A stretch of DNA of 54,740 nt from Acidimicrobiia bacterium (GCA_003235475.1 QJWC01000070.1:1-54740); one strand, 5' to 3'; positions 29,953 to 42,302 are shown, counted from the stretch's first letter. The notes: generated by a model not told the origin, from the sequence alone. A program made the numbers and translations.

Positions 29953-30187
29953 ATCCCCCTGGCTCCGCTGACGCTCGCCCGTCCCCCTTGAAAGGGGGAC
30001 GAATGTTTGGGACGTCCCTTTCAGGGATCGCAACGCGGAGCCTGCGCGCGGGGCGGACGATGTTGTTTTACGTCCCCCCTTCAGGGGGGACGGCAGCGCA
30101 CGGAGTGCGGTGCAGGGGGGTTCGCAAGGTGGGGAGTGCCATCCCCCTGGCTCGCTGACGCTCGCCCGTCCCCCTTGAAAGGGGGAC
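29953..30187 (-). repeat. Family A repeat cluster A3 (right', left', right' arms, reversed)
   Basis: 29953-30000 ATCCCCCTGGCTCCGCTGACGCTCGCCCGTCCCCCTTGAAAGGGGGAC; 30072-30122 GTCCCCCCTTCAGGGGGGACGGCAGCGCACGGAGTGCGGTGCAGGGGGGTT; 30141-30187 second right arm. Confidence 0.9.
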
Positions 30188-30190
30188 GCG

Positions 30191-33638: not shown

Positions 33639-33782
33639 AACCCCCCTGCATCGCACTCCGTGCTCTGCCGTACCCCTGAAGGGGGACGAGAATTGTCCTG
33701 GTCGCGCTCGACGAGCCGACTCGAGCGTTGGACACGTCCCCCTTTCAAGGGGGACGGGCGAGCATCAGCGAGCCAGGGGGAT
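33639..33782 (+). repeat. Family A repeat, copy A4 (left 33639-33687, right 33736-33782)
   Basis: Left and right arms near-identical to A1; last base overlaps the stop codon of the 33782..34687 gene. Confidence 0.9.
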
Positions 33783-34687
33783 CATGGGCAGGTGGGGCGC
33801 CAGTCGGTCTCTCCGTACACCGCAGCAGCGATCGCATAGAGGGTCGGGTCGTACTCGCGCAGTTCGTCGCGGGTGTTCACGTGGTTGTGCTCCGAGTTTG
33901 GTTCGCGGTCCGCGGCGTTGTCCTCGATGTTGACGTCGAAGAAGGACTGCGTTCCCTCCATCCAATACTCGTCGCGGTTGATCTCTGCGAGGGTGTTCGC
34001 CCAGAGCCCGGCCGCGATCGCCTTGCCGTACGCACGGTCGATGGCCGCAGCGGTGGCCGGGTCGACGACATCGAGCCCGAAGCGGCGGATCGTGAGTGCG
34101 AACGTCCGCACGAAGATGTCCTCACCCCCGTAGAAGTCGTCGTCGTAGCAGAGGAGGTTCTCTTCGCCGCCAGCGAAGAGGGGGAGTTCAGCCGTTCCCG
34201 GGAAGCTGCGGCCCCGTCGGCGCCAGTCTGTCCCGGGGTACAGGTCGTAGAGCTTCGTGAACTCGGGCATCCGATCGATCCTCGTCCCCGACGGCACGAC
34301 CCTGCCTTCGATGGCCGTCTCGAGAAGGGCGGCCATGAGGTCAGGCCGGAACTCGAGCATGTGGAACACGCGGTCCGCTTCGGCGTCGAGTGCCGCTGGC
34401 GGGACGCCCTCGCCTGCCTTGAGGGGGATACCGAGCACCGTGCATCCCTGAGGATTGGTCTCGTCACCCGTTGGGCCGACCACGCACTCGTTCGTCGGTG
34501 GTGGCTCGGTTGTGGTGGTGGTGGTCGGCGGAACCGTCGTTGTGGACGTTGATGTGGTCCCCGGGTCGAGCGTTGTCACGGGCGCCGGTTCGGTGGTCGA
34601 GGTGGTTGTTTCGGGAGGCTCGGTGTTCGACGTGCAGGCCGACCCGACGATCGCGAGAGCAACGAGCATTGGGACCAGGGGGCGCAT
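33782..34687 (-). CDS. Secreted lipoprotein with Thr-rich linker and a zincin-like domain lacking HExxH
   Basis: Lipobox VALAIVGSACTS, TTT/P linker, then ...GRSFPGTAELPLFAGGEENLLCYDDDFYGGEDIFVRTFALTIRRFGLD...IDRAYGKAIAAGLWANTLAEINRDEYWMEGTQSFFDVN. Confidence 0.55.
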   Translation of the reverse strand: MRPLVPMLVALAIVGSACTSNTEPPETTTSTTEPAPVTTLDPGTTSTSTTTVPPTTTTTTEPPPTNECVVGPTGDETNPQGCTVLGIPLKAGEGVPPAALDAEADRVFHMLEFRPDLMAALLETAIEGRVVPSGTRIDRMPEFTKLYDLYPGTDWRRRGRSFPGTAELPLFAGGEENLLCYDDDFYGGEDIFVRTFALTIRRFGLDVVDPATAAAIDRAYGKAIAAGLWANTLAEINRDEYWMEGTQSFFDVNIEDNAADREPNSEHNHVNTRDELREYDPTLYAIAAAVYGETDWRPTCP

Positions 34688-34735
34688 TCGGGCGAGGATA
34701 CGGCCAGCGGGGTGCTTGCGGGAGTGGACGCGAGA

Positions 34736-34764: not shown

Positions 34765-34816
34765 GCGCTGACGACGACCCCCGTCTGTCGTGCATTCATG
34801 GCCATGACACGCTTGA

Positions 34817-34844
34817 GTCGGACACGCCAGAATGAATGTCCGAC
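34817..34844. promoter_or_regulatory. Inverted-repeat motif upstream of sigma gene 1
   Basis: GTCGGACA-N12-TGTCCGAC, ends 37 nt before ATG 34882; core homologous to 38308-38334. Confidence 0.65.
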
Positions 34845-34881
34845 GGGCGTGTGATCCGGCAATGAACCTGTTGAGCGAGGA

Positions 34882-35439
34882 ATGGCGACCGTGAGCAAGA
34901 AGGCTCAATTCGAGAGGCTCTACCGGGCACATGGGCAGGCGGTGTACCGGTATTGCCTGCGGCGCACCTCGCGGGACGATGCGAAGGATGCAATGGCCGA
35001 TGTGTTCGCCGTGGCGTGGCGGCGGTTCGATTCGATCCCGAACGACGAGGGACAGTTGCCCTGGCTGTACGCCGTCGCGAGGAATGTGCTCAGCGATCGG
35101 AGACGGTCGCACCGGCGACGCGACCGCCTGACCGCGAAGATCGCTTCTCACGCACCAGAGTCGGTGGAAGGCCCTGAGACCCAGGTCGTGCGGTCCGCTG
35201 AGTATCAAGCCGTGGTCGAGGCGATTGGGAAGCTTCCGCAGACCGACCAGGAGATCATTCGGCTGATCGAGTGGGAGGGTCTCGAGCGTGAGCAGGTGGC
35301 CACCATGATGTTCGTGAGTCGCGCTGCCATCGACAAGCGCATGGCCAGGGCCTACAAGAAGCTCGAGCGTCTGCTCAAGCCCGAGATCAGAGATGTACGA
35401 ACGACCCCCGTGACGATCGAAGAAGGAGGTGAGGCATGA
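34882..35439 (+). CDS. ECF-type RNA polymerase sigma factor (copy 1)
   Basis: FERLYRAHGQAVYRYCLRRTSRDDAKDAMADVFAVAWRRFDSIP...LPWLYAVARNVLSDRRR (sigma-2) and LPQTDQEIIRLIEWEGLEREQVATMMFVSRAAIDKRMARAYKKL (sigma-4). Confidence 0.9.
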   Translation: MATVSKKAQFERLYRAHGQAVYRYCLRRTSRDDAKDAMADVFAVAWRRFDSIPNDEGQLPWLYAVARNVLSDRRRSHRRRDRLTAKIASHAPESVEGPETQVVRSAEYQAVVEAIGKLPQTDQEIIRLIEWEGLEREQVATMMFVSRAAIDKRMARAYKKLERLLKPEIRDVRTTPVTIEEGGEA

Positions 35440-36767
35440 CCGACATCGGTCTCTTGGTGCGCTCGGCGAACCCCGTCCCGGACGACTCGCAGCAGCTCAC
35501 CGACGATGAGCTCGGCGCCGTTCTCCTTCTCGCCCAGCAGAGGAGCGGGGACATGGACACGAAGGAAAGAACGAGTACGGCTGTGACGTCGAATTCTCGA
35601 CGTCACAACCTTGCGATTGCGATCGGGTCGTTCGCCGCGGCACTCGCCGTGGTCGGCGTGCTGTTGTGGACAGGAGGGTCTACCGAGGACACGCCACCGG
35701 CGACGGTGCCGTCCACAACCACGACGGTGGTGGAGCTGACGACCACAACTCCTGCGGCCCCGGCGGTGAACGCCGCCGACCAGACGGTGCTGGATGGCTT
35801 CATCGGTGCCCTCAACTCAGGAGACATGGATGTGGTGGATGCAACACTGAGTCCCTCCGCAGTGACCGTGCTCCCATGGGACGAGGTCACGTACGCCAGA
35901 GATGCGATGCTGAAAGAACTCAGGTTCGTAGCGAACCGCGGGTCGACAACCGCACTGTCGGACTGTCGCCCGGACGGCGACAGGGTGTTCTGTCGCCAGA
36001 CACGGAGCGGCGACTACGAGCAGGTCGTGTACCGGAGCGACGCAATCAGCAATGTGTGGTTCACGATCGATGGCGACCACATCCTCCAGATCGAGGACAA
36101 GTGTCAGATCTGTCCGGACCAGGAGCGTTTCGAGGCCGTGGTTGACTGGGTGGCGAGCTTTGATCCCAGTGGGGCCGCGAGCATGGGGAGGCTGGTCGCG
36201 CCGCCGGCGATCGTCGATGGAATGGCCGAAGCGTGGGCGACGTATGCGCCGTTGTGGCTCCAGTCATCGATGGATGGCAATCTCGGCGAGGTTGCGTTCG
36301 TCGAGGCTCTTGTGGCCGAGTTGAATGCGGGCGATTGGGAGGCGTACTCGGCGCGCGTGTTGTCGGCAGCAACGCAAGGGTCGAGGCTCGGCACTTCGAA
36401 ATCCGGGAACACGTTCGCCATCGAGGATGTGGCTCGCGATGCACAGGATCTTGCAGATCTGGGCACTCACGAAGAGGTTCTGGTTTGCCATGTGTCCGAA
36501 GACGGTCTCACGCGGTGCGACATCGAGCGTTTCTCGGACTACGACCCGTGGGCTCCGCTTCCAACTACTGGTCAGTACCAAGTGCAGATGGACGGTGAGA
36601 CGGTGGTCTTCTTCAATTGGCTTCCATATGGGAGCGACCCGTGGTTCCAGATCTCGAAGGACTGGCAGGCGTGGGTCAGCGAGAACTACCCGGATGCCGA
36701 CCTCACTCCAGAGTTCCAGAAGGTGATCGTCGAGCGGTATCGGGAACAGGCCGGCCTGAACGGATAG
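35436..36767 (+). CDS. Single-pass membrane protein, putative non-canonical anti-sigma factor (copy 1)
   Basis: Overlaps sigma stop (ATGA); cytoplasmic LLVRSANPVPDD..., TM AIAIGSFAAALAVVGVLLW, Thr/Pro linker, extracellular domain; paralogous to 38930..39799. Confidence 0.65.
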   Translation: MTDIGLLVRSANPVPDDSQQLTDDELGAVLLLAQQRSGDMDTKERTSTAVTSNSRRHNLAIAIGSFAAALAVVGVLLWTGGSTEDTPPATVPSTTTTVVELTTTTPAAPAVNAADQTVLDGFIGALNSGDMDVVDATLSPSAVTVLPWDEVTYARDAMLKELRFVANRGSTTALSDCRPDGDRVFCRQTRSGDYEQVVYRSDAISNVWFTIDGDHILQIEDKCQICPDQERFEAVVDWVASFDPSGAASMGRLVAPPAIVDGMAEAWATYAPLWLQSSMDGNLGEVAFVEALVAELNAGDWEAYSARVLSAATQGSRLGTSKSGNTFAIEDVARDAQDLADLGTHEEVLVCHVSEDGLTRCDIERFSDYDPWAPLPTTGQYQVQMDGETVVFFNWLPYGSDPWFQISKDWQAWVSENYPDADLTPEFQKVIVERYREQAGLNG

Positions 36768-36770
36768 GGC

Positions 36771-36801
36771 TTGACTTCAAGTCAGGTTGAAGTTGTACGG
36801 T
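36771..36801 (+). promoter_or_regulatory. MerR/SoxR-type promoter-operator
   Basis: TTGACT -35 (36771-36776), 19-bp spacer, TACGGT -10 (36796-36801), with ACTTCAA-GTCAGG-TTGAAGT inverted repeat at 36774-36793. Confidence 0.55.
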
Positions 36802-36807
36802 GGGCGC

Positions 36808-37167
36808 ATGCCCACCACAACAGCTGCCCTCGAACGACTGAAGCGCACTCGGACCGTCGATCTGACCACCATTGGTCGGCGGTCCGGGTTGCCGCGTACC
36901 GTGGAGATCTGGTGGTTCCACGTCGACGACCGGTTCATCATCACGGGAACACCGGGACGTCGGGACTGGCTGGCCAACATCCGCGCGAACCCTCACGTGA
37001 CGATCTCGACACCGTTCGGTGAGTTTCACGCGACGGTTCGTGAGATCGACGACGCCGCATTCCGACGGCGAGTGTTCGAGGCCCCGGAGATCGGCTGGTA
37101 TGCCTCCCAGGCCGATCTCCAGCGCCTCGTCGACACCGCGCCGATGATCGAGGTCGACCTCAGCTGA
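36808..37167 (+). CDS. Deazaflavin (F420)-dependent nitroreductase family protein (DUF385-like)
   Basis: VDLTTIGRRSGLPRTVEIWWFHVDDRFIITGTPGRRDWLANIRANPHVTI. Confidence 0.85.
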   Translation: MPTTTAALERLKRTRTVDLTTIGRRSGLPRTVEIWWFHVDDRFIITGTPGRRDWLANIRANPHVTISTPFGEFHATVREIDDAAFRRRVFEAPEIGWYASQADLQRLVDTAPMIEVDLS

Positions 37168-37172
37168 GCGCG

Positions 37173-37206
37173 ATGACGGGGGCCGACGCACGCGGACCCC
37201 CGTCAT
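37173..37206. terminator. Bidirectional terminator-like hairpin between convergent genes
   Basis: ATGACGGGGG...CCCCCGTCAT. Confidence 0.7.
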
Positions 37207-37230
37207 CAACTCGTCTCAACGTCGTCCGTG

Positions 37231-37623
37231 CTACTCCTCGACCGTGAGGGTTCCCTTCATGCCGGCCTTGAAGTGGCCCTCTAGGCCGCAGATGATCTGA
37301 TACGTACCGGCCTCGAGCGCAGGGATCGTGTCGGACTTGGACTCACCCGCCTCGGCCTCGGTCTCCCAGAGCACCTTGTCCTCGGCGAACTCGTCCTCGG
37401 ACATGATCTCCGTCTTCATGATGACCCACTCGTGCTCGACCTGTGCGTCGTTTTTTACGGTGATCGGTGTTTCGGTGTTGGCCTTGATAGTCCAGCTGTC
37501 GGGGGAGAACTGGTAGTCGGTCGCTGTGACCTTCACCGAGTCGCTGTCTCCGTCGCTGCTGCATGCACTCATCACGATCGCAATGACTGCAACGAGCAGA
37601 ACCAATGCTCTTGCGCGCTTCAT
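37231..37623 (-). CDS. Cupredoxin-like (plastocyanin-type) lipoprotein
   Basis: Lipobox VMSACSS; KVTATDYQFSPDSWTIKANTETPITVKNDAQVEHEWVIM...GTYQIICGLEGHFKAGMKGTLTV. Confidence 0.85.
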   Translation of the reverse strand: MKRARALVLLVAVIAIVMSACSSDGDSDSVKVTATDYQFSPDSWTIKANTETPITVKNDAQVEHEWVIMKTEIMSEDEFAEDKVLWETEAEAGESKSDTIPALEAGTYQIICGLEGHFKAGMKGTLTVEE

Positions 37624-37709
37624 GCTTTGCCTTCCCTGGGGGCGCATACCCCCTGTCGGTTCCTGAGCTGCGCACGGCGGCACATCTCACGCACAACGTA
37701 CACCTCTCT

Positions 37710-37724
37710 CCGACACAGTGTCGG
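37710..37724. promoter_or_regulatory. 15-bp palindrome upstream of the cupredoxin gene
   Basis: CCGACAC-A-GTGTCGG. Confidence 0.4.
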
Positions 37725-37755
37725 GAGAAGTGGAAGTTCTGAGAAGTTCCCGAAG

Positions 37756-38127
37756 TCAGTCGGCTGAGTCCATGTCTTCGACGAGTCCAACCATGTTGCC
37801 CGCGGGATCTCTGAAGAGGGCGTACGTGACCATATCCGGGATGGTCGTGCGGGGCATGACCGTCGAGCCTCCGGCAGCTTCAGCCGCCGCCAAGGTGTCG
37901 TCGATGCTTTCGACGGACACGTAGATCGTGACGTAGGTGGGCATCTCCTCTGACCCACTCCCAACCGCTCCGCCGACGGGCATGGAGTCCTCGGCAACCA
38001 TCTGATACTCCTCGAACCCCGGTGGACCCTCCAGCTCCCAGTCGAAGAGCGACTTGTAGAACGCAACGGTTGCGGCCGCATCCGGCCCCATGATCTCCCA
38101 GTGGACGACTGGATTCTTGCTGGGCAT
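37756..38127 (-). CDS. VOC family protein
   Basis: VVHWEIMGPDAAATVAFYKSLFDWELEG...MVTYALFRDPAGNMVGLVED. Confidence 0.85.
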   Translation of the reverse strand: MPSKNPVVHWEIMGPDAAATVAFYKSLFDWELEGPPGFEEYQMVAEDSMPVGGAVGSGSEEMPTYVTIYVSVESIDDTLAAAEAAGGSTVMPRTTIPDMVTYALFRDPAGNMVGLVEDMDSAD

Positions 38128-38224
38128 GCCTGCTCCTTTTCTCGGACCGCCTCAGACTGACGACGGTACTTCCCGATCGTGACAGGAACCAGCGGAATTC
38201 CCGCGACGCGGGTTCGCACGCGAG

Positions 38225-38254
38225 ACCGGGAGCCGACCCGAGCCGACTCCCGGT
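38225..38254. terminator. Hairpin upstream of sigma gene 2
   Basis: ACCGGGAG-N14-CTCCCGGT. Confidence 0.5.
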
Positions 38255-38307
38255 GCGCTGCGCAGGCCCCCGCCTGTTCGAGGTGGGATGTCCCGTGTGC
38301 CGCCGGT

Positions 38308-38334
38308 TCTGACATGTCAGAATCGAATGTCAGA
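38308..38334. promoter_or_regulatory. Inverted-repeat motif upstream of sigma gene 2
   Basis: TCTGACAT-N11-ATGTCAGA; core aligns to the 34817-34844 motif: TCkGACAyGyCAGAAT(c)GAATGTCmGA. Confidence 0.65.
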
Positions 38335-38384
38335 TGGGACGGCGGTCCGGACATACCAGCAGCAGCGAGCCCCCTTGGACGGGT

Positions 38385-38933
38385 ATGAACCGTGATGCAC
38401 GCTTTGAATCTCTGTACCGGGCACATGCAGCCGATGTGCTCGGATACTGCGCACGCCGCGTCGGACGCCACGACGCCCAGGACGCAGCATCCGAGGTCTT
38501 CGTCGTCGCATTGCGGCGCATCGATGACGTCCCACATGGCGACGAAGCACTTCCCTGGCTGTACACCGTTGCACGAAACGTGGTCCGCAACCGTGATCGC
38601 GCCAGCAGGCGAAGGCTCCGGCTCACCACGAAACTTCACTCCACATCGGAACGATCCGTACCCGGACCTGAGCCCCAGGTCGTGCGGAACGAGGAACACC
38701 GAGACCTTGTTCGCGCGCTGGACTCGCTTCCCACAAAGGACCAGGAGGTCCTCAGGCTCGTCGAGTGGGAGGGCCTCTCCCGCGAGCAAGTGGCCGACAT
38801 GTTCTTCGTGAGCAGGGCCGCCATCGACCAACGCATCAGCCGCGCCTACAAGAAGTTGTCGAGAACCCTCGGCGTACCGCCCACAGATCCGCGCACCGCC
38901 CCCGTGCCAAACGAGAGAGGAGGTGAGGCATGA
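38385..38933 (+). CDS. ECF-type sigma factor (copy 2)
   Basis: FESLYRAHAADVLGYCARRVGRHDAQDAASEVFVVALRRIDDVP...LPWLYTVARNVVRN...LPTKDQEVLRLVEWEGLSREQVADMFFVSRAAIDQRISRAYKKL. Confidence 0.9.
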   Translation: MNRDARFESLYRAHAADVLGYCARRVGRHDAQDAASEVFVVALRRIDDVPHGDEALPWLYTVARNVVRNRDRASRRRLRLTTKLHSTSERSVPGPEPQVVRNEEHRDLVRALDSLPTKDQEVLRLVEWEGLSREQVADMFFVSRAAIDQRISRAYKKLSRTLGVPPTDPRTAPVPNERGGEA

Positions 38934-39799
38934 GCGACATCCAGACCCTGATGCGAAGCGCAAACCCGGTCCACGACGTGACGACCGAGTTCGGTCAGGA
39001 CGACCTCGACGCCTTGCTGCTCCTCACACGCACAAGGAGCACGGAAATGGACCTGAGGGAAGTCACACGACCGGTGAAGAAGGGACCTCGGCGTGGACGG
39101 TCAGGATTGCTCGCGGCAGCGGCGGCATTCGGCGCCGTCGTGGTCCTGATCGGCAGCTTGGTGGTTCTGAACCGCCGCACCGACCCGGAGATCCCGCCAG
39201 CCACCGTTACCACGACGACGGTTCCGTCGACGACGGCGCCCGCCACCACGACCATCACCGAGCCATCCACGACCTCGACGGCGCCGGCTCCGGAGGTGGA
39301 CGCTGCGGCTGTCGCCTACATCGAGGCATTGGTAGCTGACTTGAACGCCGGGGATGTCGACGCGATGACACAACGGATTCTGGAAGCCAAGCAGGTCGGT
39401 TTCGGCGACGGTGCGGGAGGTACGGAGCAGCCGATTCGCGCTGTGACGTACTGGATCGGGATTGAGGTGCAGGCCGAGATCCTCGGATGCCGGATGTCCG
39501 ATGTGGGAATCACGAAGTGCGATGTTGACATGTACTCGGACTACTTCCCGTTCGCGCCACTGCCGATGACCGGTCAGTGGCAGGTGAGGCTGGATGGCAC
39601 CGAAGTGGCCTTTCAGACGTGGTACGCCTTCGCGATGGATCCGTGGTTCCAGATCGACCTCGACTTCCAGGCCTGGGTCGTGGAGAACTACCCCGAATAC
39701 CAAGCCGTGATCCTCGTCCCGACCGATCCGGTGAGGGCCGCCGAGCTCACGAAGCAGATAGTCGCTGAGTATCGGGAGCAAGCTGGCCTGAGCGGATAA
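38930..39799 (+). CDS. Single-pass membrane protein, putative anti-sigma factor (copy 2)
   Basis: ATGA overlap with sigma 2; LMRSANPVHD..., TM LLAAAAAFGAVVVLIGSLVVL, Thr-rich linker; C-terminus homologous to 35436..36767 and 39909..40652 (EYREQAGLSG/NG). Confidence 0.65.
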   Translation: MSDIQTLMRSANPVHDVTTEFGQDDLDALLLLTRTRSTEMDLREVTRPVKKGPRRGRSGLLAAAAAFGAVVVLIGSLVVLNRRTDPEIPPATVTTTTVPSTTAPATTTITEPSTTSTAPAPEVDAAAVAYIEALVADLNAGDVDAMTQRILEAKQVGFGDGAGGTEQPIRAVTYWIGIEVQAEILGCRMSDVGITKCDVDMYSDYFPFAPLPMTGQWQVRLDGTEVAFQTWYAFAMDPWFQIDLDFQAWVVENYPEYQAVILVPTDPVRAAELTKQIVAEYREQAGLSG

Positions 39800-39908
39800 C
39801 TCGCGGCGCTGCGATTCAGGCCCTTCGCCCTATCGGCCCCGACTGACATGGTGCTTGTGACTGCAACCACGCATTGGAGACCTGGGGTTTCCAAGACTTA
39901 CAAGGAGT

Positions 39909-40652
39909 ATGGAGATGAATGAAAAGAACGTTGTAGCCCCGGACGAAGGCAAGAAGACCTTCGGAAGAGGCTCATTGACTGCGGCAGCGGCCCTCGTCGT
40001 TGTCGTCCTCACTGTCGGAATTGTGGCCGTGCTGAACCGAGGCGGAGACCCCGACGTTGTGTCAGGCGCATCCTCGTCTACGACAACCAGCCAACCCGCA
40101 ACGACAACGACCCGGACAACGACGACGGTCGCCACCACGACGACGACCGTGCCCGAGCCGGACGCAGTAGCGGTGACGTTTGTCGGGGAGTTGGTGGCTG
40201 AAATCAACGCTGGTGATCGTGAGGCTGTGGATTCGACTCTGGCGTCGGTGCCGGAGCTCAAGCGTCCGAGCGGCGGATGGGATGGGACCCTTCTGGCTCC
40301 GTATGTGCAGTTCTGGATCGAGGTTGACTCGACTGTCGAGATCCTTGGCTGCCGGAAGTCGGATGACGGTACGACTCGGTGCAACATCGAGCGGTACTCC
40401 GATGCTGAGCCTTGGGCGCCGCTCGCGTGGACCGGCCAGCTTGTTGTCACCATGAACGGGGACTCCGTGGAGATCTTGAACCTGATGGGGTTCGATAGCG
40501 ACCCGTGGAAGGCGGCGGGAGAAGCTTTCCGCTATTGGGTCCGACAGAACCGAAACGACGATCTGTATCTCATCTACAACAACGACGATCCCGTAGAACG
40601 AGCTGAGGCACAAGCGAGGCTGCTCGCCGAATACCTGGAGCTGACCGGCTAG
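39909..40652 (+). CDS. Orphan, N-terminally shortened paralogue of the anti-sigma-like proteins (no sigma gene upstream)
   Basis: TM SLTAAAALVVVVLTVGIVAVL, Thr linker, VAVTFVGELVAEINAGDREAVDSTL..VEILGCRKSDDGTTRCNIERYSDAEPWAPLAWTGQLVV resembles copy 2 (QAEILGCRMSDVGITKCDVDMYSDYFPFAPLPMTGQWQV). Confidence 0.65.
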   Translation: MEMNEKNVVAPDEGKKTFGRGSLTAAAALVVVVLTVGIVAVLNRGGDPDVVSGASSSTTTSQPATTTTRTTTTVATTTTTVPEPDAVAVTFVGELVAEINAGDREAVDSTLASVPELKRPSGGWDGTLLAPYVQFWIEVDSTVEILGCRKSDDGTTRCNIERYSDAEPWAPLAWTGQLVVTMNGDSVEILNLMGFDSDPWKAAGEAFRYWVRQNRNDDLYLIYNNDDPVERAEAQARLLAEYLELTG

Positions 40653-40676
40653 TTGACGTATCGACCGCATCGCTCC

Positions 40677-40715
40677 AGTGGGAGGGTCCAGGTGAAGCCA
40701 CCGGGCCCTCCCACT
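40677..40715. terminator. Hairpin upstream of sigma gene 3
   Basis: AGTGGGAGGG...CCCTCCCACT. Confidence 0.6.
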
Positions 40716-40732
40716 AGGTTCCCGTGCGTAGT

Positions 40733-40790
40733 CCGGACACCTCCACATGTCCGGGGCGACCACGCTCGGACAGAAACATCTGTTGTCCGG
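40733..40790. promoter_or_regulatory. Two inverted-repeat motifs upstream of sigma gene 3
   Basis: CCGGACA-N8-TGTCCGG (40733-40754) and TCGGACA-N11-TGTCCGG (40766-40790). Confidence 0.6.
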
Positions 40791-40827
40791 GAACCGCCGA
40801 TCCGGACATGGGACGGTGAAGGAGTCG

Positions 40828-41403
40828 ATGAGGATGGATGCCCGCATGGCGACGAACACCAACGAGGAAGCACGCTTCCGCAGGTTGTTCCACGCCGAGT
40901 ACGACCCCATCCTGCGGTACTGCCTGCGGCGGCTCCCGACGGCTGACGCCAACGACGCGGCATCGGAGGTGTTCATGGTCGCCTGGCGACGCATGGACGC
41001 ATTTCCCGCCGATAATCCGCGGCTCTGGCTGTACGGGATCGCCCGCAACGTCGTCCGGAACTTCCAACGCTCCGCCAGGCGGTCCCGCCGCCTCGCGGGC
41101 AAGATCGCGGGCCTGTCGCCCGAGGTCGTGGAGAGTCCCGAACGGCAGGTGGTGACCAACGACGAGCTGCGAAGTGTGCTCGTGAGCATGGAGCGCCTTC
41201 GCCCGGACGACCAGGAGATCCTGCGTCTGAAGGCGATGGAGCGGCTCTCGCTTCCTGAAGTGGCATCCGTGCTCGGATGCTCCGAGGAAGCGGCGAGGAA
41301 GCGGTTCGAACGAGCAGCCAAGCGACTTCAGAGCAAGGTCGGCAGTCCCGTGCCGGCATCAACACACATCCCGTGCGATCCAGAAGGGGAGGTGACCGTA
41401 TGA
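40828..41403 (+). CDS. ECF-type sigma factor (copy 3)
   Basis: FRRLFHAEYDPILRYCLRRLPTADANDAASEVFMVAWRRMDAFP...LWLYGIARNVVRNFQRS...LRPDDQEILRLKAMERLSLPEVASVLGCSEEAARKRFERAAKRL. Confidence 0.88.
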   Translation: MRMDARMATNTNEEARFRRLFHAEYDPILRYCLRRLPTADANDAASEVFMVAWRRMDAFPADNPRLWLYGIARNVVRNFQRSARRSRRLAGKIAGLSPEVVESPERQVVTNDELRSVLVSMERLRPDDQEILRLKAMERLSLPEVASVLGCSEEAARKRFERAAKRLQSKVGSPVPASTHIPCDPEGEVTV

Positions 41404-42302
41404 ATGCCGACATGCTGACGAGGCAGATCGCCAACGCCGACGCGTATGCGCCGGAGTTCGATCTACCCGAGGCGGCCCGTCCAGCTGACGTCGCCTTCGC
41501 CGACATCTCGAGGAGGATCGACATGGACGCAAAGGAAATGACCCGAGCAGTCGAGGCGGACCCCCGAAACCGGTGGTCCGGGTGGATGGCCGCAGCCGCG
41601 GCATTCGGCCTTGTGGTACTGCTCGCTGGTGGTGTGATGCTATTGAACGGCAGCAACTCAGAAGTTCCGCCGGCAACGACCCCAACGAACCCGGCGCCAC
41701 CGACCACGCAAGCTTCGGAGCCGACGTCAACGGTCGCAACAACGACCACAACGCAGGCCGTTGAGCAAGTCACCGCGGCAGAGCTGGAGATCATCGCCGC
41801 GTACGAAGCTGCTGTGAACTCGGGAGACGAACAACAGATTAGTGAGGTACTCGCCGCCGACTTCCGGCAGACGACCCAGGGAGAGGGCGACTTCTTCCGC
41901 GCTGCCGATACGTGGATCAGGCAGCAGCTGTTCGAAACGCTCGAGGGATCAAGCGTCACCTACACCGAGTGCGTGCGCAAGGAAGCCGCGGTGTCGTGCA
42001 CTGAGACCTGGACGGGTCCCCGCCAGATTGCGATCATGTGGCGGGACTGGACCGCACAGGTTGACTTCTTCTTCGCCGAGGGCGTGGTGGTCTCGATGCA
42101 TACTCGGCACATGACGTTCCCGGGCATCCCAACGATCGGGGAGACGACCGACAACATGGTGCGTTGGGCAGCCGAGCAGGTCGATGCCGAGACCCTTGCG
42201 GGCCTCGAGAAGTGCGGCGACCCGGCGCTGTACTACGACGTGACCCAGCCCGGTCTTTGCGGCGAGTGGTTCCAGAAATGGATTGATGCCGGTCGGCCCT
42301 AG
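41400..42302 (+). CDS. Single-pass membrane protein, putative anti-sigma factor (copy 3)
   Basis: ATGA overlap with sigma 3; cytoplasmic ...ISRRIDMDAKEMTRAV, TM MAAAAAFGLVVLLAGGVMLL, Thr-rich linker, SnoaL/NTF2-like-looking extracellular domain. Confidence 0.6.
   Translation: MNADMLTRQIANADAYAPEFDLPEAARPADVAFADISRRIDMDAKEMTRAVEADPRNRWSGWMAAAAAFGLVVLLAGGVMLLNGSNSEVPPATTPTNPAPPTTQASEPTSTVATTTTTQAVEQVTAAELEIIAAYEAAVNSGDEQQISEVLAADFRQTTQGEGDFFRAADTWIRQQLFETLEGSSVTYTECVRKEAAVSCTETWTGPRQIAIMWRDWTAQVDFFFAEGVVVSMHTRHMTFPGIPTIGETTDNMVRWAAEQVDAETLAGLEKCGDPALYYDVTQPGLCGEWFQKWIDAGRP

Follow-up and report, generated by a model that had tools for sequence, protein, structure and literature searches.

Why does an inverted repeat precede each of three ECF sigma factor genes in one stretch of DNA from an Acidimicrobiia bacterium (GCA_003235475.1, QJWC01000070.1; 54,740 nucleotides, hereafter the window)? 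A sequence-only reading had located the repeats and suggested an autoregulatory operator or an RNA hairpin common to the three systems. We found the arms where that reading had put them: GTCGGACA (34817-34824) and TGTCCGAC (34837-34844) before sigma 1, TCTGACAT (38308-38315) and ATGTCAGA (38327-38334) before sigma 2, and TCGGACA (40766-40772) and TGTCCGG (40784-40790) before sigma 3, with a second copy, CCGGACA (40733-40739) and TGTCCGG (40748-40754), near sigma 3. The sigma 1 and sigma 2 repeats do align almost base for base, and the repeats end 37-50 nt 5' of the sigma ATG codons as described, with the proviso that sigma 1 may start at a GTG instead. That the motif is shared by all three genes also held up: the plus strand of the 54.7 kb window has just three instances of the strict pattern TCNGACA-N10..14-TGTCNG, one ahead of each sigma gene and none elsewhere (mean 0.13, maximum 2 in 60 dinucleotide shuffles of the window). 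The pattern GGACA...TGTCC is likewise over-represented in the window (4 vs 0.89).

All three genes lie on the plus strand and encode proteins of about 182-188 aa that consist of sigma regions 2 and 4 only and end shortly past region 4. Sigma 1 (34891..35439, from GTG 34891, which is preceded by an RBS-like GAGGA, or from ATG 34882) and sigma 2 (38385..38933) match Pfam Sigma70_r2 and r4_2, and all three, including sigma 3 (40828..41403; 2.6e-21), match NCBIfam sigma70-ECF. Each sigma gene overlaps or abuts a plus-strand gene whose product, a putative anti-sigma, spans the membrane once and has a Thr/Pro-rich linker. The partner of sigma 1 (35436..36767, overlapping the sigma gene by 4 nt) has one TM segment and a SnoaL-like outer domain (SnoaL_2 match of 1.4e-5, below cut-off), that of sigma 2 (38930..39799) has a weak CU044_5270-family match, also below cut-off, and that of sigma 3 (41400..42302) has a TM segment and the linker. 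None of the anti-sigma family models in Pfam and NCBIfam matched these putative partners. Among relatives of these sigma genes, the next gene encodes a TM protein in 105 of 107 cases. The assembly to which the window belongs (2.1 Mb) holds 14 such ECF sigma genes, and the few close named relatives found are Acidimicrobiia or unspecified actinobacterial MAGs. The family is strongly expanded in relatives, with up to 28 detected copies in one 4 Mb genome and a membrane protein nearly always next. We also observed an orphan membrane protein between operons 2 and 3 (39909-40652, plus strand) that resembles the outer part of the putative anti-sigmas and has neither a sigma gene nor the N-terminal cytoplasmic segment. 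Elsewhere in the window, a perfect 36-nt direct repeat, CGCTGACGCTCGCCCGTCCCCCTTGAAAGGGGGACG, occupies 29966-30001 and 30153-30188 and contains the hairpin-like CCCCCTTGAAAGGGGG; a similar reading-frame peptide occurs near 33.7 kb.

To ask what the repeat belongs to, we gathered the sequences lying 5' of related ECF sigma genes across the genome's order, starting with 94 regions and reaching 161 once the set was enlarged. In a model-free count, 22 of 83 upstream regions had TGTC and GACA starting at a distance of exactly 22 nt, and shuffles gave at most 4 at any distance. The invariant feature is therefore TGTC...GACA, whereas the GACA...TGTC spacing of the sequence-only reading is variable. 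The underlying unit is TGTC[A/C]G-N12/13-CCGGACAT, which has the form of an ECF-type promoter. The sites are directional, TGTCAG or TGTCCG followed by CCGGACAT, and many have a reversed copy, TGTCCG...CTGACA, upstream. In the window, the same wider unit lies on either side of each repeat, with TGTC and GACA starts 21 or 22 nt apart, and had been overlooked. Its outer boxes fall at 34856-34862 and 34799-34806 for sigma 1, at 38347-38353 and 38289-38294 for sigma 2, and at 40802-40808 and 40748-40754 for sigma 3.

A promoter matrix built from other genomes only, with the window's own genome excluded, and refined on the upstream regions of those same relatives, placed its top four window matches at 40784 (plus), 40748 (minus), 38328 (plus) and 34837 (plus), with 34799 (minus) ranked tenth. 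The predicted forward promoter of sigma 3 (40784..40808, plus strand) is the best in the window (PWM 21.0), with -35 TGTCCG at 40784-40789 and -10 CCGGACA at 40802-40808. Its mirrored counterpart on the minus strand (40748..40772; PWM 16.3, rank 2) has -35 TGTCCG at 40772-40767 and -10 CCGGACA at 40754-40748, leaving a gap of 11 bp between the two -35 boxes. For sigma 2, the candidate forward promoter (38328..38353, plus; PWM 16.2) has -35 TGTCAG at 38328-38333 and -10 CCGGACA at 38347-38353, and was also an own-genome hit of a sequence model of the promoter (E = 0.0145). The mirrored unit (38289..38314, minus) is weak (PWM 7.9), with -35 TGTCAG at 38314-38309, -10 GGGACAT on the complement of 38288-38294, a box spacing of 22 nt and a gap of 13 bp. 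For sigma 1, the candidate forward promoter (34837..34862, plus; PWM 15.0, rank 4) has -35 TGTCCG at 34837-34842 and -10 CCGGCAA at 34856-34862, and the mirrored one (34799..34824, minus; PWM 10.6, 12 bp gap) has -35 TGTCCG at 34824-34819 and -10 ATGGCCA on the complement of 34799-34805. The visible inverted repeat is thus formed by the two inner -35 boxes, because the mirrored copy sits back to back with the forward unit. The extra CCGGACA near sigma 3 (40733..40739, no strand assigned) has no -35 partner at promoter spacing. A scan for sigma-70 consensus promoters gave a single match at chance level (34804-34833).

The motif is not scattered through the genome apart from sigma operons. At promoter spacing, the strict pattern has only six sites in the 2.1 Mb assembly, half of them in this cluster and three outside it, near chance, and we rejected a wide regulon on that count. 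A sequence model of the promoter gave one further good own-genome candidate, C15:3210-3240 (G000; about 1011-1041 of L184), a palindromic site between M24-peptidase-like and metallo-hydrolase-like genes, which is unconvincing as a target because a hairpin separates it from the next gene on that strand. Several TGTCCG...CGGACA pairs also occur within 250 bp at C17:9854-10099 of the same genome (L100-L103), possibly in coding sequence.

How common is the mirrored copy, and is it related to the forward one? A forward unit was present at 123 loci, and at 39% of these a mirrored unit reached a score of 10 or higher within 110 bp upstream; in the same stretches, shuffles gave 0.4% and another forward unit was found in 5%. 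The two copies at a locus resemble each other more than copies from different loci, both in the -35 (8.39 vs 6.35 matches, z 9.6) and in the -10 (9.61 vs 8.33, z 6.2), and 0 of 10,000 permuted pairings reached the within-locus agreement. The excess lies at -35 positions 3-9, counted from the first T, and in the -10 GGaCAT and just after it, and the spacers have no excess. These data bear on the proposal that the repeat acts as an RNA hairpin or a DNA cruciform. The three window elements do form more stable folds than shuffled sequences (z -3.2 to -3.9), but they fold well because of the mirrored boxes, and symmetry across loci is confined to the -35 and -10 boxes. Spacer pairing across 51 loci was no better than between mismatched loci (p = 0.41), and swapping spacers between loci left the folding energy unchanged (gain -0.17 +/- 0.41 kcal/mol). 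Moreover, transcription is predicted to start downstream of the repeat, and an Rfam scan found nothing. We consider a hairpin or cruciform scarcely plausible, and the RNA hairpin of the sequence-only reading found no support.

Next, we considered that only the forward promoter is autoregulatory and that the mirrored copy serves a divergent gene also targeted by the sigma factor. Divergent ECF targets are known, for example for RpoE7 of S. meliloti (PMC6180224), and sigma 1 and sigma 2 have divergent neighbors, a lipoprotein-like gene (33782-34690) and a glyoxalase-like gene (37756-38127), respectively. Sigma 3 has none, however, and its mirrored copy is among the nearly half that point towards the 3' end of a gene oriented like the sigma gene. 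With approximate gene calls from codon-position GC, a divergent upstream gene was present at 26 of 49 loci with a mirrored unit and 28 of 67 without, which is not a clear enrichment. The divergent-target reading also does not predict the clustering of the gaps between facing -35 boxes, which fell at 2, 10-14 and 19-25 bp (n = 50, gaps up to 40 bp). At a 10.5-bp period the gap resultant was 0.55, compared with 0.13-0.18 for smoothed nulls (p < 1e-4). Helical phasing is suggestive rather than proven, because some of the loci are orthologs; if real, it would mean that the two promoter sites act on each other or on a common partner. We regard a promoter for a divergent gene as a rather unlikely purpose of the mirrored copy. 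On the sigma tree, the presence or absence of this copy switches at least 26 times, and therefore the copy is frequently gained or lost, yet where present it is matched to the current specificity of its sigma factor.

That specificity could be traced to particular residues. Mutual information with the -35 bases peaked at sigma residues 145, 148 and 149, in the recognition helix of region 4.2; in region 2, the variable -10 base was associated with residue 69 and the following bases with 65 and 66. Using the mirrored copy alone, the peaks fell at the same alignment columns. For the -35, Q149 goes with A (56/57), K149 with C (24/29), K148 with C (12/12) and D/E148 with G, and for the -10, N69 goes with A (89/91), H69 with G (13/14) and D69 with C (3/3), in counts that include kin, as the loci are phylogenetically related. 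The mirrored copies by themselves gave Q to A in 26/26, K to C in 17/19, N to A in 35/36 and H to G in 7/7. With tree control, the sign test could draw on 3 and 6 independent pairs with branch support; nearly all agreed with the expected direction, but they were too few for significance. As read from aligned sequences, the residue-base code is nearly one-to-one. Upstream regions of some H69 sigma genes (L013, L022, L043, L055 and L057) form a promoter subclass, TGTCAGGAA...GGTGGGAAT...GGTATGAA, without a mirrored copy.

The three sigma factors of the window follow this code. Sigma 1 (K149, D69) has TGTCCG and GGCAA, sigma 2 (Q149, N69) has TGTCAG and GGACA, and sigma 3 (K149, N69) has TGTCCG and GGACA, each as predicted. 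The seemingly degenerate -10 of sigma 1 is expected because D69 predicts C, and GGCCA is found with two D69 sigma factors at other loci (L130 and L176). In the nearest homologs of sigma 2 (L002 and L112, 61-63% identity), K149 goes with TGTCCG in both copies, as opposed to Q149 and TGTCAG in both copies of sigma 2. The compensatory changes noted earlier between the arms are therefore real, but they track sigma residue 149, a K to Q change accompanied by C to A in both -35 boxes. Since the boxes of each sigma factor match its own residues 149 and 69, the three tandem paralogs have pairwise distinct promoters, and each appears to have its own private promoter signal.

The same covariation bears on whether the repeat could be a palindromic operator through which a separate dimeric regulator controls all three operons. 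Two-fold symmetry and DNA-phased spacing would suit an operator, which would also need no divergent gene. The bases covary with the DNA-contacting residues of the adjacent sigma factor, however, and there is a consistent difference between outer and inner boxes, of the kind seen between -10 and -35 boxes. In addition, no regulator gene travels with the operon, and none is encoded between or within the three operons. An operator of this kind is very unlikely, and of the earlier term autoregulatory operator we retain autoregulatory and replace the operator for another regulator with a promoter pair read by the sigma factor itself. The unit, its spacing, its mirroring, the covariation and the residue-base code are all properties of the sequences compared. 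From these we conclude, with high confidence, that the repeat represents two -35 boxes facing each other in a back-to-back pair of promoters, predicted to be read by the product of the ECF sigma gene immediately downstream.

The elements of this arrangement are in part familiar: ECF positive autoregulation, TGTC-type -35 boxes, residue-base codes and bidirectional promoters with a shared -10 are already known. Positive autoregulation is predicted for about 55% of ECFs (PMC8103513), and as in autoregulated ECF operons, the sigma gene here is followed by a membrane protein gene and directly preceded by an own-sigma promoter, here recognized by its code and spacing. Unlike those operons, about 40% of the loci add a mirrored promoter for the same sigma factor at preferred -35 to -35 gaps. 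The promoter of ECF41, TGTCACA-n16-CGTC (PMC3426412), shares a -35 box that starts with TGTC and a nearly equal -35 to -10 distance; the boxes here, TGTC[A/C]G and CCGGACAT, differ from TGTCACA and CGTC. These sigma factors also lack the fused C-terminal SnoaL-like domain of ECF41, and where such a domain is recognizable it lies in the separate membrane partner. In the bidirectional promoters of E. coli described by Warman, Grainger and colleagues (PMC12825309), symmetry lets polymerase bind in either orientation, one excluding the other, with one symmetric -10 shared and starts 10-23 bp apart in tested cases; here there are two complete promoters, with the -35 boxes inside and two separate -10 boxes outside. 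The ECF specificity code of Todor et al. 2020, as represented in PMC8103513, likewise correlates residues of domains 2 and 4 with bases in autoregulated ECFs. Beyond the code as represented there, ours can be read separately from each of the two promoters at a locus and fits three neighboring paralogs. In the open-licence literature we came across no account of autoregulatory promoters that are paired back to back and matched to their sigma factor, and the conserved, covarying, phased mirror arrangement looks new relative to known ECF autoregulation.

In the model that we propose, the forward promoter (-35 TGTC[A/C]G, 12-13 nt, and -10 CCGGACAT or a sigma-specific variant) would drive the operon of sigma factor and putative anti-sigma. 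Once the membrane anti-sigma lets go of the sigma factor, the holoenzyme would amplify its own operon, and the mirrored promoter would be read by the same sigma factor in the opposite direction. The forward and mirrored promoters probably serve as alternative binding sites or constrain each other. Mutual exclusion at short gaps is a reasonable guess, because two polymerases could hardly fit side by side there. We infer transcription from either promoter, the anti-sigma role of the membrane proteins and the purpose of the mirrored copy from this arrangement.

The broader proposal is that an ECF sigma factor autoregulates through two complete, opposed, helically phased promoter copies, kept in step with each other and with the sigma factor through repeated specificity changes, with no divergent gene required; we give it about even chances. 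If it is true, the pair itself would be regulatory, for example through polymerase competition, cooperative loading or antisense insulation. The finding raises the question of why a sigma factor retains another copy of its promoter that faces away from its own gene. It would also let the repeat, so far unexplained, be read as a sigma-promoter code for a large family of ECF paralogs in uncultured Acidimicrobiia, a code that would account for the insulation of three tandem paralogs by one or two residue changes.
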